DNA of 42,317 nucleotides, from the NCBI GenBank assembly GCA_946183175.1, contig CAMHBH010000002.1:1-42317 (forward strand), given 5' to 3'. The notes beneath the pieces were generated by a model. The model saw nothing but the letters and a program-made list of their open reading frames with translations, did no database searches and had not been told where the DNA came from. This DNA comes from an uncultured Oscillibacter sp. Lineage in GTDB: Bacteria > Bacillota > Clostridia > Oscillospirales > Oscillospiraceae. Positions 7,571 to 18,399 of this stretch are shown here, in pieces; within the stretch, counting starts at the first letter, position 1, and every line of letters begins with the position of its first letter. A program made the position numbers and the translations under genes.

Positions 7571-9658
7571 ATGTCACAACGCAAACCCTACTATATCACC
7601 ACGCCGATTTACTACCCCTCCGACAAGCTCCACATCGGCCACACCTACTGCACCGTCGCCACGGACGCCCTCGCGCGCTACCAGCGCCTCAAAGGACGCG
7701 ACGTGATTTTCCTGACGGGCACCGACGAGCACGGGCAGAAAATCGAGACCAAGGCCAAAGAGGCCGGCGTGTCGCCGAAAGAATTTGTGGACGCCATCGT
7801 AGACGGCCCGCGCGGCGTGCGCGACCTCTGGCGGCTGATGAACATCTCCAACGACCGCTTCATCCGCACGACCGACGAGTACCATGTCAAGTCCGTACAG
7901 CGCATCTTCCGCCGCATGTACGAGAAGGGCGACATCTATCTCGGCTCCTACAAGGGAAAATACTGTACGCCCTGCGAATCCTTCTGGACGGAAAGTCAGC
8001 TCAAGGACGGCTGTTGCCCCGACTGCGGGCGGCCCGTCACCGACGCCGAAGAAGAGGCCTACTTCTTCCGCCTGAGCAAGTACGCCGACCGTATCCGCGA
8101 CCTGCTGGAGAATACCGACTTCTTACAGCCCCGTAGCCGCGTCAACGAGATGGTTAAGAACTTCCTCGACCCCGGCCTCGAAGACCTGTGCGTGTCGCGG
8201 ACAAGTTTCCAGTGGGGCATTCCCGTCGATTTCGACACCAAACACGTCGTCTACGTCTGGCTCGACGCCCTCACAAACTATATTACCGCCCTCGGCTACG
8301 AGAACGAACAATTCAGCGACTACGACCGCTTCTGGGCCGACGCCCAAGACGAAAGCTCCTGGCGGAGAAGCAATATCGCCGTGAACATCGTCGGCAAGGA
8401 AATCGTGCGCTTCCATTCGATTATCTGGCCCGCTATGCTGATGAGTTTGGGCGAACCTGTCCCCAAACACGTATTCGGCCACGGCTGGCTGTTGCTCGAC
8501 GGCGGCAAGATGTCGAAATCCAAGGGCAACGTCGTCGACCCGTATATTTTAGCCGAACAGTTCGGCGTAGACGCCCTGCGGTTCTTCTTACTGCGCACGT
8601 TCCCCTTCGGCGCGGACGGCAATTTCTCCAACGAACTCCTCATTCAGACCATCAATACCGACCTCGCCAACGACTTAGGCAACCTCGTTTCGCGCACGAC
8701 GGCAATGGCGGTCAAGTATTTTAACGGTACGCTTCCGGAATCCGCCGGGGCCACCGCCGACGAAATCGACCTCGCGAAACTGTCGGCGGCGGGCGGGGAA
8801 ATCACGCTCTCCGCCACCAGCGACGGCGACCCGCTCCTCTACGACGCCCAGCTCGTCGCGCTGGCGTCCGGACTGCGCAACCGCTTTGCGGCGCAAATGG
8901 ACACGTTCGCGCCCCATAACGCGCTGTCCGAAATCTTTAAGGTTATCCAGCGGGCCAATAAGTATATCGACGAGAACGCCCCGTGGGCCCTCGCGAAGGA
9001 TATGGACGCCAACGGCGCGCGCCTCGCGCATGTCCTGTACAACCTGCTGGAAACGGCGCGTATTTGCGGCGTGTTGCTGACGCCGTTCATCCCCGAATCG
9101 TGCGGGAAGCTGTTCGGGCAAATCGGCGCGCCGGAATCGGTTCGTACTTGGGACAGCGCCGCCGTGTGGGGGGCTTTACCCGTCGGCGCGACTATCTCGA
9201 AGGGCGAAAACCTCTTCCCGCGCGTGGACATGGAGAAGGCCTTAGCCGAACTCGAAGCGGCGTCGGAGGCCGCCAAAAAGGCCGCGCTCCCGCCCGTCGA
9301 ACTCGAACCGTATACGGCGGAACCCGTGGACTTTGACACGTTCTGCAAGAGCGACTTCCGGGTCGTGAAAGTCAAGGATTGTACGGCGGTCAAAAAGAGC
9401 GCGAAACTGTTGCGCTTCACCCTCGACGACGGCTCCGGTACGGACAGGCAGATTTTGTCGGGTATTCACGCATGGTACGAGCCGGAGGCGCTGATTGGCA
9501 AGACGCTTGCGGCGATTGTGAATCTCCCGCCGCGCAAGATGATGGGCCTTGAAAGTAACGGCATGCTGTTGTCCGCCGTCCACCGCGAGAACGGCGAGGA
9601 AAAGCTGAACCTTATCATTCTGGACGACGCGATTCCCGCCGGGGCCAAACTCTGCTGA
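7571..9658 (+). CDS. metG: Methionyl-tRNA synthetase
   Basis: Cytoplasmic class I aminoacyl-tRNA synthetase that charges tRNA-Met. The ATG at 7571 is chosen because AAGGAGG precedes it by a good spacing; the track's start at 7532 lies inside the -10 box. The 695 residues begin with the MSQRKPYYITTPIYY strand, followed by the KLHIGH signature, a zinc site CTPCESFW..CCPDCGRP, the KMSKSKGN loop, the anticodon-binding helical domain and a C-terminal EMAPII/OB-fold tRNA-binding domain (FDTFCKSDFRVVKVKDC onward). This is the usual Bacillota dimeric layout. The region after NDLGNLVSRT carries a loop of about 25 residues rich in Ala/Gly/Asp, longer than I expect for the family, between helices of the anticodon domain. 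It heads a run of plus-strand genes (HAD, methyltransferase, MNT/HEPN). Confidence 0.97.
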   Translation: MSQRKPYYITTPIYYPSDKLHIGHTYCTVATDALARYQRLKGRDVIFLTGTDEHGQKIETKAKEAGVSPKEFVDAIVDGPRGVRDLWRLMNISNDRFIRTTDEYHVKSVQRIFRRMYEKGDIYLGSYKGKYCTPCESFWTESQLKDGCCPDCGRPVTDAEEEAYFFRLSKYADRIRDLLENTDFLQPRSRVNEMVKNFLDPGLEDLCVSRTSFQWGIPVDFDTKHVVYVWLDALTNYITALGYENEQFSDYDRFWADAQDESSWRRSNIAVNIVGKEIVRFHSIIWPAMLMSLGEPVPKHVFGHGWLLLDGGKMSKSKGNVVDPYILAEQFGVDALRFFLLRTFPFGADGNFSNELLIQTINTDLANDLGNLVSRTTAMAVKYFNGTLPESAGATADEIDLAKLSAAGGEITLSATSDGDPLLYDAQLVALASGLRNRFAAQMDTFAPHNALSEIFKVIQRANKYIDENAPWALAKDMDANGARLAHVLYNLLETARICGVLLTPFIPESCGKLFGQIGAPESVRTWDSAAVWGALPVGATISKGENLFPRVDMEKALAELEAASEAAKKAALPPVELEPYTAEPVDFDTFCKSDFRVVKVKDCTAVKKSAKLLRFTLDDGSGTDRQILSGIHAWYEPEALIGKTLAAIVNLPPRKMMGLESNGMLLSAVHRENGEEKLNLIILDDAIPAGAKLC

Positions 9659-10395: not shown

Positions 10396-11544
10396 ATGAT
10401 ATTGACAGTTCCCTGTCTGCTGGGGCTGGAGGGGATTGTAGCCGACGAGCTCCGGCGGCTGGACTGCAAGAATATACAGCCCGAAAACGGGCGCGTGTCG
10501 TGCGCGGGGAGTATCGCCGACGTTGCGCGGCTCAATCTGAACCTGCGTTGCGGGGCGCGCGTACTGCTCAAAGTCGGGACGTTCCCCGCGCCCGATTTCG
10601 AGGCCCTGTTCCAGGGCGTCAACCGTATCCCGTGGGAGGAAATCATCCCAAAGGACGGCGAATTTCCCGTCAAGGGCTGGTCGCTCAATTCGGTACTGCA
10701 TTCCGTCCCGGCCTGTCAGGCGATAGTCAAAAAGTCGGTCGCCACGCGTCTGGGCCGCGTCTACGGCTGTCAGACGCTCCCCGAGACCGGCGAACGCTAT
10801 CAGATACGCTTTTCAATCACCCATGACACGGCGTCGGTGTACCTTGACACCACGGGCGAGGGCTTGTACAAGCGCGGCTACCGCGCGCGGAATATGGGCG
10901 CGCCGTTGCGCGAGACCTTAGCGGCGGCACTGGTACTGTTGTCGCGCTACCGGGGCAAGGACCCCTTCTGTGACCCGTTCTGCGGTTCGGGCACGATTCC
11001 CATTGAGGCGGCGCTGATTGCCAAGAACCGCGCCCCCGGACTTGACCGCCATTTCGCCGCGCAGAGGTGGAAGACGATGGAGTCGCGCCACTGGGTGGAG
11101 GCCGCCGGGGAGGCTATCGACAAGGAATACCACGGGCAGTACGAGATTGTCGGCAGCGACATCGACCCCGACGCGGTGGAGCTGTCGCGGCACAACGCCG
11201 AGCTGGCGGGCGTCGACGACTGTACGCGCTTTGAAGTCGCCGACGCGCTGGACTTCCGCCGCGGGAGCGAGTACGGACAACTTGTGACGAATCCGCCCTA
11301 CGGCGAGCGCCTCATGGACAGAGCGCAAGTCGAAACGCTGTACCGGAATTTCGGGCAGACGCTGGAGGCGTTGCCGGAGCGCTGGCGCGTGATTATCCTG
11401 TCGTCGCATGAAGAATTTGAACGTTGTTTCGGGCGTCCGGCTGCGAAACGGCGCAAACTCTACAACGGCATGATTCCCTGTAACGCCTACTTCTACGGCG
11501 GCTGGACGCGCGCCGCCGGACAGAATGCGCCCGGCTCAAAATAG
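10396..11544 (+). CDS. THUMP-domain class I SAM-dependent RNA methyltransferase (RlmL/YpsC-like)
   Basis: Probable 23S rRNA guanine-N2 methyltransferase of the UPF0020 family. The ATG at 10396 is preferred over 10381 because GGAGGGAG sits just upstream of it. The 382 residues start with an N-terminal ferredoxin-like/THUMP region (about 1-155), then the Rossmann methyltransferase with the SAM-binding segment FCDPFCGSGTIPIEAALIAK, acidic loop SDIDPDAVELSRHNAELAG and catalytic VTNPPYGERL (the NPPY motif typical of N2-guanine methylation). Length matches single-domain Bacillota YpsC-type proteins rather than the fused E. coli RlmKL. The final bases run into a short gap before the nucleotidyltransferase gene. 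Confidence 0.92.
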   Translation: MILTVPCLLGLEGIVADELRRLDCKNIQPENGRVSCAGSIADVARLNLNLRCGARVLLKVGTFPAPDFEALFQGVNRIPWEEIIPKDGEFPVKGWSLNSVLHSVPACQAIVKKSVATRLGRVYGCQTLPETGERYQIRFSITHDTASVYLDTTGEGLYKRGYRARNMGAPLRETLAAALVLLSRYRGKDPFCDPFCGSGTIPIEAALIAKNRAPGLDRHFAAQRWKTMESRHWVEAAGEAIDKEYHGQYEIVGSDIDPDAVELSRHNAELAGVDDCTRFEVADALDFRRGSEYGQLVTNPPYGERLMDRAQVETLYRNFGQTLEALPERWRVIILSSHEEFERCFGRPAAKRRKLYNGMIPCNAYFYGGWTRAAGQNAPGSK

Positions 11545-16049: not shown

Positions 16050-17141
16050 TTAGTCCAGATAGCCTTTCGCGCAGAGTAACTCGGCCAGCAGGACGCCGCC
16101 GCCCGCCGCGCCGCGTAAGGTATTGTGGCTCAGGCCGGCGAATTTGTAGTCGTACTGCGTATCGGGGCGCAGACGCCCGAGGGAAATCGCCATGCCGCGT
16201 TCGAGATTCCGGTCGAGGCGGGTTTGGGGGCGGTCGGGTTCTTCAAAATAGTGTAAGAACTGTTTCGGCGCGGACGGAAGCTGTAATTCCTGCGCGGGGC
16301 CGCGGAAGGCGTCCCAGTCGGCGCGAATCTGTTCGATAGACGGCTTGCGGCCCTCCGCGAACTTCATGAACACCGCCGCCATATGCCCGTCGAGGCAGGC
16401 CACCCGGAAGCACTGCGCGGTAATCGACGGCCCCTCCGCCTTCACGATACGCCCGTTTTCGACGCGGCCCCAGAGTTTCAAAGGCTCCTGTTCGCTCTTC
16501 TCCTCCTCGCCGCCGATGTACGGGATACAGTTGTCAACCATTTCGGGCCAGCGCTCGAACGTCTTGCCCGCGCCGGAAATCGCCTGGTACGTACACACTA
16601 ACACGCGCTCCAGGCCGTACTTGCGGAGAGGGTGTAAGGCCGGGACGTAGCTTTGCAGGGAGCAGTTCGACTTCACCGCGATAAAGCCGCGTTTCGTGCC
16701 TAAGCGCTTCTTTTGGGCGTCGATGACTTCCAGATGTTCGGCGTTGAGTTCGGGGACGACCATAGGAACATCAGGCGTCCAGCGGTTGGCGGAGTTGTTG
16801 GAGACTATCGGGCATTCGAGTTTCGCGTAGCGCTCCTCCAGCGCCCGGATTTCCTCCTTTTTCATGTCGACGGCGCAGAAACAGAAGTCGACTTGCGCGG
16901 CAAGGGCCTCGGCGTCGGCGTCGGCGTCGGCGTCGAGTACGGTCAACGCCTTCGCGGCGTCGGGAATCGGCTCGGACATCGCCCAGCGTTTCGATACGGC
17001 TTCCTCATACGTTTTCCCGGCGCTCCTGCCGCTCGCCGCGACGGCCACCAGTTGAAACCACGGGTGCGCCGCTAACAACGTCACGAAACGTTGTCCCACC
17101 ATTCCCGTAGCACCAATGACACCTGCTTTATATTGTTTCAC
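16050..17141 (-). CDS. asd: Aspartate-semialdehyde dehydrogenase
   Basis: Makes aspartate semialdehyde from aspartyl phosphate with NADPH. The 363 residues start at a GTG preceded by GGGAGTG. The Rossmann motif is GVIGATGMVGQRF, the catalytic cysteine lies in VKSNCSLQSY, and SGAGKTFERWPEMVDN with the IGGEEEKSEQE region is typical of the larger archaeal/fungal-type Asd also found in many Clostridia. A (DA)4 run near residue 75 is encoded by four perfect copies of a hexanucleotide (16909-16932). First gene of the asd-dapA operon, divergent from queA. Confidence 0.95.
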   Translation of the reverse strand: MKQYKAGVIGATGMVGQRFVTLLAAHPWFQLVAVAASGRSAGKTYEEAVSKRWAMSEPIPDAAKALTVLDADADADAEALAAQVDFCFCAVDMKKEEIRALEERYAKLECPIVSNNSANRWTPDVPMVVPELNAEHLEVIDAQKKRLGTKRGFIAVKSNCSLQSYVPALHPLRKYGLERVLVCTYQAISGAGKTFERWPEMVDNCIPYIGGEEEKSEQEPLKLWGRVENGRIVKAEGPSITAQCFRVACLDGHMAAVFMKFAEGRKPSIEQIRADWDAFRGPAQELQLPSAPKQFLHYFEEPDRPQTRLDRNLERGMAISLGRLRPDTQYDYKFAGLSHNTLRGAAGGGVLLAELLCAKGYLD

Positions 17142-17180: not shown

Positions 17181-17306
17181 CGCTTTTCTGTCGGCGGAAT
17201 CGCCCCGCGTGTGCGGGGAAAGGACAGGCCAAATCGGTCACTATCATTTTTAGGAGCACCCCCGCGTGTGCGGGGAAAGGCCATAGGAATCCCCAACAGA
17301 AAAGCG
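17181..17306. repeat. 126-bp element bounded by an 11-bp perfect inverted repeat
   Basis: CGCTTTTCTGT at 17181-17191 and ACAGAAAAGCG at 17296-17306 are exact reverse complements and flank the two CRISPR-like repeats. It could be a miniature element end, a long-range hairpin, or an accident of array decay. No obvious target duplication was found. Confidence 0.5.
17196..17280 (+). CRISPR. Two-repeat type I-E-like CRISPR remnant (no cas genes)
   Basis: CCCCGCGTGTGCGGGGAAAGG occurs twice, identical over 21 bases, at 17203-17223 and 17260-17280. Taking 28-base repeats (17196-17223 and 17253-17280), the second copy starts GGAGCAC like common I-E repeats, while the first is degenerate at its 5' end. 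Each holds the CCCCGC-GTGT-GCGGGG hairpin. The one spacer is 29 bases, giving a 57-base period, shorter than the usual I-E period of about 61. No cas genes lie in the window. It is a remnant or solo mini-array between divergent asd and queA. Confidence 0.55.
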
Positions 17307-17373
17307 GAGAAATACTATCACGCTTCCCGCACCTTGTCAAGAGCGGAGAAAATGTAACAAAGGACGGATTCCC

Positions 17374-18399
17374 ATGAAAACCAGTGACTTTTCCTACGAC
17401 CTCCCGCCCGAACTGATTGCCCAGACGCCCGCCGAACGGCGCGACGCGTCGCGTCTGATGACACTGAACCGCGCAACGAGCGAAATAGCCCATCATCATT
17501 TCTATGATTTGCCGCGGTTTCTATGCCCGGGGGACTGCCTGATTTTGAACGATTCCCGGGTGATTCCGGCGCGCCTCATCGGACAGCGTCAGCCGGGGGG
17601 CGGCGTCAGCGAAATCCTGCTCTTGACGGAGCGCGGCGGCGGCGTGTGGGAATGCCTCGTCCGTCCGGGGCGGAAACTCCGCCCGGGGACGGTGGTCACG
17701 TTCGGCGGCGGGGAACTGTCGGCGGAAATACTGGAACGCCTCGACAACGGAAACCGCCTGGTGAAATTCGCATGGGAGGGTATTTTCCTGGAAGTGCTGG
17801 AGCGCCTCGGGGAAATGCCCCTGCCGCCGTACATCCGGGAGAAACTCCGCGACCGCGACCGTTACCAGACGGTCTACGCGAGAATCAACGGGAGCGCGGC
17901 GGCCCCGACTGCCGGACTGCATTTCACCAAGGAATTGCTGTCGGAAATTAGGGCGCGGGGCGTGGGAATCGGTTCCGTGACACTGCACGTAGGCCTCGGG
18001 ACATTCCGGCCCGTGCGGGAGGAAGACCCGTTGGAGCACGAAATGCACAAGGAATACTGTATCGTGCCGCCGGAGACCGCCGAACTGGTGAACCGTACCC
18101 GGGCCAACGGCGGGCGGTGTGTCTGCGTGGGCACGACATCCTGTCGGACGCTCGAAACGTGGGCCGACGAAAGCGGAATTTTGCGTCCGGGCGCGGACTG
18201 GACGGGGATTTATATTTATCCCGGCTACCGTTTCAAAGTCACGGACGCGCTCGTGACGAATTTCCATCTGCCGGAAAGTACGCTGTTGATGTTGGTCTCG
18301 GCCTTCGCCGGACGCGAACGAATACTCAACGCCTACCGGGAGGCAGTTAAGGAACGCTACCGGTTCTTTTCCTTCGGCGACGCTATGTTGCTGATTTAA
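17374..18399 (+). CDS. queA: S-adenosylmethionine:tRNA ribosyltransferase-isomerase
   Basis: Transfers and isomerises the ribose of SAM onto 7-aminomethyl-7-deazaguanine in tRNA, making epoxyqueuosine. The 341 residues are full length. Family landmarks are [19 protein letters not shown] at the N-terminus, the [15 protein letters not shown] strand, [20 protein letters not shown] and the C-terminal [26 protein letters not shown] precedes the ATG. Divergent from asd; no tgt or yajC was seen next to it in this window. Confidence 0.97.

Follow-up and report, generated by a model that had tools for sequence, protein, structure and literature searches.

An orphan CRISPR mini-array between asd and queA of an Oscillibacter genome resembles most of its sister arrays in carrying a spacer related to a neighboring gene

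Mini-CRISPR arrays that are aimed near their own position have been described in the Sulfolobales viruses SPV1 and SPV2, where it was left unclear how this proximity arose and what follows from it (Medvedeva et al. 2019, PMC6858448), and some phage mini-arrays target adjacent genes of related viruses, according to the summaries of 2019 work given in PMC6858448 and PMC7099407. The window analyzed here, a stretch of 42,317 nucleotides (nt) from contig CAMHBH010000002.1, belongs to a metagenome-assembled genome (MAG) of Oscillibacter (G000; a 2.05-Mb draft, 95% complete) and contains, at positions 17181 to 17306, a one-spacer CRISPR mini-array, closing inverted repeat included, between the divergent genes asd and queA. 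Like the SPV1 and SPV2 mini-arrays, this array and its Oscillibacter sisters have one or two spacers, a promoter-containing leader, host-type repeats, and no cas genes; their spacers match close relatives near the array position, the carrier's own site is altered by point mutations or deletions, and the array position is conserved while its spacers are exchanged. Unlike the arrays of these archaeal viruses, most of the Oscillibacter arrays are chromosomal and lie beside housekeeping genes, their repeats are of the bacterial type I-E kind, and several of them are closed by a stem.

To characterize the distribution of the repeat, we scored 86 genomes of the genus with a covariance model, counting sites of at least 35 bits as strong. 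This identified 19 strong sites, all of them in four genomes (G000, G018, G104, and G105), with the next score at 27 bits, and nearly all lay in pairs or triplets with a period of 57 or 61 nt. All genomes are MAGs, and independent arrays are few, at seven sites. The asd-queA array, with a period of 57, is present in the window and in the neighboring Oscillibacter MAG G018 (L017). Arrays with a period of 61 were found upstream of pgm in G000 (L018), upstream of a C_GCAxxG gene in G018 (L016), between the terminase, portal, and capsid genes of a G018 prophage, which carries two of them (L015), in phage-like DNA of G104 (L030), and between smc and ftsY of G104 (L031). Two solo repeats, both with a degenerate 3′ end, are probably collapsed mini-arrays and occupy the same kind of site: one lies upstream of pgm in G105 (L172/L193, G105:C15:136502-136529) and is orthologous to the filled G000 site, and the other follows an acyltransferase-like gene in G104:C428 (L221, 2813-2840). 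In G104, one of the pgm sites looks empty. Six near-identical weak hits of 21.5 bits at similar positions in G045 (C42, C44, C48, C49, C50, and C53) probably represent an unrelated repeated element.

We found that eight of the nine spacers in the three Oscillibacter MAGs have a match no more than 1 kb away from their own array, with 1 to 10 mismatches: queA 9, pgm 7, C_GCAxxG 10, terminase 3, capsid 2, portal 1, and asd promoter 5, while the smc spacer has 6 mismatches to a remnant copy and 10 to the smc gene itself. When control 2-kb segments were compared (51 to 151 per spacer), none matched as well as the neighbor, and the chance of such adjacency is about 1e-3 per spacer for a 2-Mb genome. 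Because identity is only 70 to 97%, standard spacer searches miss these adjacent matches. Our preferred reading, to which we assign a probability of roughly 60%, is that these arrays encode locus-linked guides, which would be directed at rival alleles of the locus they are linked to and would use type I-E Cas proteins supplied in trans.

The spacers resemble alleles of other lineages. On the plus strand, the window spacer reads T-G-Q-I-G-H-Y-H-F, and codons 35 to 44 of the relatives' queA read T-G-E-I-G-H-Y-H-F-Y. The resident protospacer-like site in queA (17476 to 17508, minus strand, taking a 33-nt protospacer as inferred) mismatches the spacer at 9 of 29 positions; the spacer has 8 mismatches to the queA of G018 and 4 or 5 to that of the relatives G026, G105, G106, and G104. 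Relatives were likewise nearer than the resident gene for smc (5 to 6 mismatches versus 10) and C_GCAxxG (7 versus 10); the pgm spacer (6 versus 7) is about equally close to its own allele and to those of other lineages. Differences between a spacer and its nearest relative fell on third codon positions in 13 of 19 cases (P = 0.002), and the source of the spacers is therefore a coding allele, as expected if they were captured from an unsampled relative. They are not decayed copies of the resident gene. The original prediction had proposed searching the spacer against the host genome, especially asd and queA; this recovered the diverged match to queA but no exact protospacer, and the derivation from a relative's queA, the pattern shared with most sister arrays, and the 4-nt shortfall at the seed end described below had all escaped that first reading.

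The carriers' own sites differ from those of relatives in the protospacer-adjacent motif (PAM) or the seed. An AA at positions −2 and −1 precedes the protospacers of relatives in smc, in C_GCAxxG, and, for two of four alleles, in pgm; the closest viral relatives also have AA before the portal protospacer. The resident terminase, portal, and pgm sites lack A or T at −1. In terminase and capsid, all five mismatches fall within seed positions 1 to 8 (P = 5e-4), and resident seed mismatches occupy positions 4 to 7 in C_GCAxxG and positions 1 and 8 in smc. For queA, an AA dinucleotide (17509 to 17510, minus strand) lies exactly 4 nt past the 29-nt match, which is the expected type I-E PAM position only on the assumption that the first 4 nt (ATCA) of the spacer were lost. 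The simplest reading of the sequence is that the window spacer did lose ATCA, its first four seed nucleotides, and such a loss would explain why the array has a period of 57 and not 61. Spacers of the sister arrays measure 33 nt, 4 more than that of the window array.

The guides of the two L015 arrays (9170-9330 and 10640-10735) are aimed at near relatives' genes for terminase, portal, and capsid. The arrays have promoter-like sequences (TTTACA-17-TATAAT and TATAGT) and are framed by a closing stem; a hairpin that resembles a terminator, ACCGCCGTTATCGGCGGTTTTT, was also present at this locus. These prophage arrays are of the same kind as the phage mini-arrays, with one or two spacers, no cas genes, matches to relatives, and escape of the carrier's own copy; they are new members of the virus-borne kind. 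The pattern of a matched relative near the array and an escaped carrier holds for L015 and also for the window, where the queA of relatives shows 4 to 5 mismatches against 9 in its own. The window array is nevertheless not virus-borne, as the contig carries housekeeping genes, asd and queA flank the array, and G018 has it at the same site; the arrays at queA/asd, pgm, C_GCAxxG, and smc all lie outside phages, unlike the known phage mini-arrays. No mini-arrays were found in 80 relatives of the L015 phage. In a viral sample of 80 other contigs with type I-E-like arrays, which yielded 49 mini-array spacers, and with repeated copies from one array or contig set aside, one adjacent match was clear (L246) and two were suggestive (L279 and L298). 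These three derive from unrelated phages in IMG/VR, and in each a single spacer matches a gene 0.5 to 0.7 kb away with largely conservative differences. With three spacers clear or suggestive, adjacency as a general rule for viral type I-E-like mini-arrays is unsupported.

We then consider the anatomy of the window element. The original description of two 28-base repeats identical over 21 bases, a single 29-base spacer, and a perfect 11-bp inverted repeat bracketing 126 bp proved exact to the base. The functional strand of the array is the minus strand. Read in this direction, the leader-proximal repeat R2 (CCTTTCCCCGCACACGCGGGGGTGCTCC, 17253 to 17280, minus strand; 44.3 bits in the covariance repeat model) has an intact 5′-handle end, GTGCTCC, and is followed by the spacer (TAAAAATGATAGTGACCGATTTGGCCTGT, 17224 to 17252, minus strand), which by sequence comparison is a diverged copy of queA codons 35 to 44, and by the terminal, leader-distal repeat R1 (17196 to 17223, minus strand; 41.8 bits). 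The identical core, CCCCGCGTGTGCGGGGAAAGG, occupies 17203 to 17223 and 17260 to 17280, giving a start-to-start period of 57, and includes the CCCCGC/GCGGGG stem. R1 is degenerate at its 3′ end, which corresponds to the degenerate 5′ end correctly noted before on the plus strand. The last repeat is likewise 3′-degenerate in most sister arrays, and leader-distal repeats of CRISPR arrays are usually degenerate at this end.

The framing inverted repeat comprises a 5′ arm at 17296 to 17306 (CGCTTTTCTGT on the transcript, minus strand), just downstream of the predicted transcription start, and a 3′ arm at 17181 to 17191 (ACAGAAAAGCG on the transcript, minus strand). The arms are 93% complementary over 14 nt, a pairing that lies at the 99.9% point of mismatched-partner controls. 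Predicted RNA folding of the element was far stronger than that of shuffled sequences on both strands (z = −4.4 and −4.8). Closing stems also frame the G104 array L030 (13 bp) and the two L015 arrays (8 to 10 bp). Inverted-repeat framing as a general trait of the mini-arrays was rejected, because it is strong only in the window (with G018) and L030 and weaker in both L015 arrays.

The flanking genes were assigned as asd (16050 to 17141, minus strand; PF01118/PF02774) and queA (17374 to 18399, plus strand; PF02547, E = 1e-140), and these Pfam domains confirm the position of the array between two divergent genes, queA being the neighbor that the spacer targets. A sigma-70-type promoter, TTGACA-17-TAGTAT with TGn before the −10 element (17312 to 17340, minus strand; 10/12 match, one found versus 0.3 in shuffles), reads leftward through the array and then into asd, and it is kept in relatives that lack the array. 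From its position, the array would therefore lie inside the asd 5′ untranslated region (UTR) and be transcribed from the asd promoter, and the inverted repeat would close the array transcript into a stem.

Relatives were compared at the same intergenic region, as had been suggested at the outset. G018 contains the equivalent, orthologous mini-array (L017, 2686-2840; G018:C102) with an identical spacer; compared with the window array, the stem of its terminal repeat carries a single change, as does an arm of the inverted repeat, where the minus-strand RNA keeps a G-U pair. G104 contains a strongly degenerate homologous array in the asd 5′ UTR (L037, 1862-2100; G104:C558) with a different spacer, which resembles the asd promoter of relatives, so that another spacer occupies the site of the window array.

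At the smc locus of G104 (L031, 8560-8700; G104:C607), three smc 3′ ends lie in series with two CRISPR repeats between them, the middle one being the spacer. The G104 smc gene ends in GACATGACAAAGCAACTGAAATTGGACTAA, while all relatives have GACATGGCGAAGCAGTTGAAA... at this position. Directly after smc comes the array, followed by GACATGGCGAAGCAGTTGAAATTAGACTGA, a relative-like smc end that is out of use (DMAKQLKLD-stop). The resident smc end carries 7 private changes in 29 nt, compared with 31 in 430 overall. It looks as if the array and a recoded gene end were placed ahead of the original smc end, although this is one locus in a fragmented MAG.

The repeat was originally described as type I-E-like, and several comparisons bear this out. 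The clade repeat, GTTTTCCCCGCACACGCGGGGGTGCTCC, is identical to the type I-E repeat of Streptococcus thermophilus CRISPR4 at 26 of 28 positions, and R2 of the window at 24 of 28. That system has 33-nt spacers and a predicted PAM of AA, and an A or T at −1 sufficed in vitro (PMC3890593). In sister genera of the same family, we found long arrays of 28-nt repeats and 33-nt spacers, with near-identical repeats, beside complete type I-E operons; in one of these operons (L369, 14161-15036, G269), Cas2e is fused to a DnaQ-like exonuclease. Within Oscillibacter, the sister arrays have 28-nt repeats and 33-nt spacers (period 61), compared with 28/29 and 57 in the window array and L017. The Oscillibacter arrays share with CRISPR4 the repeat and the AA motif, and the sister arrays also the 33-nt spacer length; unlike CRISPR4, they have neither a cas operon nor a long array in their genomes, and the window spacer is 29 nt. 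In a collection of 85,000 genomes that does not include the window's own, the exact 26-nt repeat core was present in only two, both of them Oscillibacter MAGs, and exact repeat copies were absent from the viral contigs.

The description of the array as an orphan extends to the whole draft genome, since G000 lacks Cas1, Cas7e, and the type IV protein Csf2. A full type I-E locus with the same repeat, for which a search had been proposed, was thus not found in the array's own draft genome, while loci with near-identical repeats exist in sister genera. Cas7e was found in none of the 86 genus genomes, Cas1 is absent from G018, and the Cas1 of G104 belongs to a type I-C operon. This type I-C system was judged an unlikely partner of the mini-arrays, whose repeat is a known type I-E repeat. 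Type IV effectors were also considered as the nuclease and set aside, as Csf2 was absent from the genus sample.

According to the preferred reading, the window array would belong to a small group of locus-linked guides found in rumen Oscillibacter. Its guide, as the sequence shows, was captured from another lineage's queA, the gene across the array; Cas6e, Cascade, and Cas3 would be supplied in trans by type I-E-positive cells, and the guide would attack DNA in which the gene linked to the array is present as a rival allele. Lost PAMs or seed mismatches, both of which were seen in the sister arrays, would spare the resident allele. As an outcome, incoming rival alleles would be excluded, or a resident rival might be replaced by the array-linked allele, the drive-like part of the proposal. 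A bolder version, which we offer only tentatively, is that these are guide-only selfish alleles of a bacterial chromosome, in which a mini-array linked to an escaped target borrows the Cas proteins of any type I-E-positive cell and displaces or excludes rival alleles. If this were true, nature would have its own equivalent of "cleave and rescue" drives, one that occurs both in prophages and at housekeeping loci and in which spacers are replaced while the site stays fixed (a queA guide in G000 and G018, and an asd-promoter guide in G104).

Several observations weigh against locus-linked targeting. The absence of a type I-E or type IV effector from all 86 genus genomes means that the nuclease would have to come from elsewhere or from the past. 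The window guide, 29 nt long with a truncated seed, is probably disabled as a nuclease guide today, given the 4-nt loss at the seed end. No spacer has an exact protospacer, and the L030 spacer has no match within 3 mismatches in the 86 genomes, with one side of that array cut by the contig end; its neighbor gene had no viral relative. Only smc shows clear recoding of its resident protospacer; the signal is suggestive in C_GCAxxG and not significant in queA or pgm. G104 is fragmented and may be a mixed MAG, as it comprises 640 contigs and has two pgm copies. Of the three options in the original prediction, a decayed array, an insertion hot-spot product, or a regulatory element, the first probably fits the window copy, while the family as a whole looks more like locus-linked guides than like debris.

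A by-product of adaptation is the alternative that survives best, and we regard it as rather unlikely. Here, Cas1-Cas2 would once have taken spacers preferentially from array-adjacent DNA, for example at breaks or recombination intermediates at the array, homologous incoming DNA included; the neighbors would have escaped later by mutation or recombination, and no drive or exclusion function would be involved. Protospacer hot spots beside arrays have been reported in Escherichia coli, and this explanation covers the adjacency, the PAMs, the mixed strand orientation, and the escape mutations. However, the spacers are nearer to foreign alleles and show synonymous divergence, and they are therefore not simply copied from the adjacent chromosome. 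Moreover, adjacent matches are missing from long type I-E arrays in this order, whose spacers never had fewer than 11 mismatches to the flanks; one cut-off array (L351), in which three spacers score 0 mismatches, was not assessed. The three MAGs also contain no type I-E adaptation genes.

An exapted RNA element, acting as a structured asd 5′ UTR or as a small RNA that pairs with queA in Cas-free regulation, is less plausible still. In its favor are the location of the array between the asd promoter and start codon, the strong fold, the antisense orientation of the spacer strand to queA, and a small hairpin, the only structure found at the corresponding asd 5′ UTR position in array-less relatives. 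Across the arrays, however, the guide strand is mixed, being sense to smc, pgm, C_GCAxxG, and capsid and antisense to queA, terminase, and portal, a pattern in keeping with DNA targeting rather than with antisense regulation. Escape in the seed and PAM would be meaningless for a regulator, and the window element matched neither an Rfam RNA nor a known asd leader riboswitch.

That the array is a plain relic of an ordinary array, accidentally adjacent to queA, is very improbable. A single, shortened spacer, a degenerate terminal repeat, and the lack of cas genes all look relic-like. For the family, this explanation is contradicted by adjacency in eight of nine spacers over seven sites, each at the low chance level given above, and by the comparison with long arrays; it could apply only to the present inactivity of the window copy. 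Scarcely credible is a REP-like palindromic family unrelated to CRISPR, which would account for short intergenic palindromes and for the solo copies in G105 and G104: the repeat is a known type I-E repeat, the solos resemble collapsed arrays, and the scatter of single hairpins that the original prediction named as its refutation was not seen, since the confinement of the strong sites to periodic mini-arrays or their remnants in 4 of 86 genomes, with a gap down to 27 bits, indicates that the window element is neither a chance hit nor part of a scattered REP family.

Locus-linked guides would have functional parallels in free-standing homing endonucleases, phage marker exclusion, and synthetic cleave-and-rescue elements, in all of which a sequence-specific cutter would favor its own allele by being linked to a form of its target that resists cutting. 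The linked cutter here would differ in being a guide RNA that uses another cell's Cas, and movement or conversion was not observed; the parallel is one of function and not of descent, and only its sequence correlates (the smc remnant, recoding, and escape) are present. RNA anti-CRISPRs are solitary CRISPR-repeat RNAs found in mobile elements without cas genes. The Oscillibacter arrays are distinct from these, as each places a target-matching spacer between two repeats, with PAMs at the targets, and is not a bare repeat. With regard to CRISPR-associated transposons that carry homing guides, the flanking genes examined at array sites were housekeeping or phage genes. Our literature search, with most subscription papers outside its scope, found no description of chromosomal locus-linked mini-arrays; those beside housekeeping loci appear to be new, while virus-borne relatives are known.

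Sister genomes offer sites that are filled, collapsed, or, as it appears, empty, and these, together with the smc remnant, make the question directly testable. They also suggest caution in dismissing "decayed orphan arrays," which may hold information in the relation between a spacer and the adjacent gene. If the rule holds beside asd/queA, pgm, and smc/ftsY, CRISPR guides would shape allele exchange between relatives, beyond their part in viral defense.
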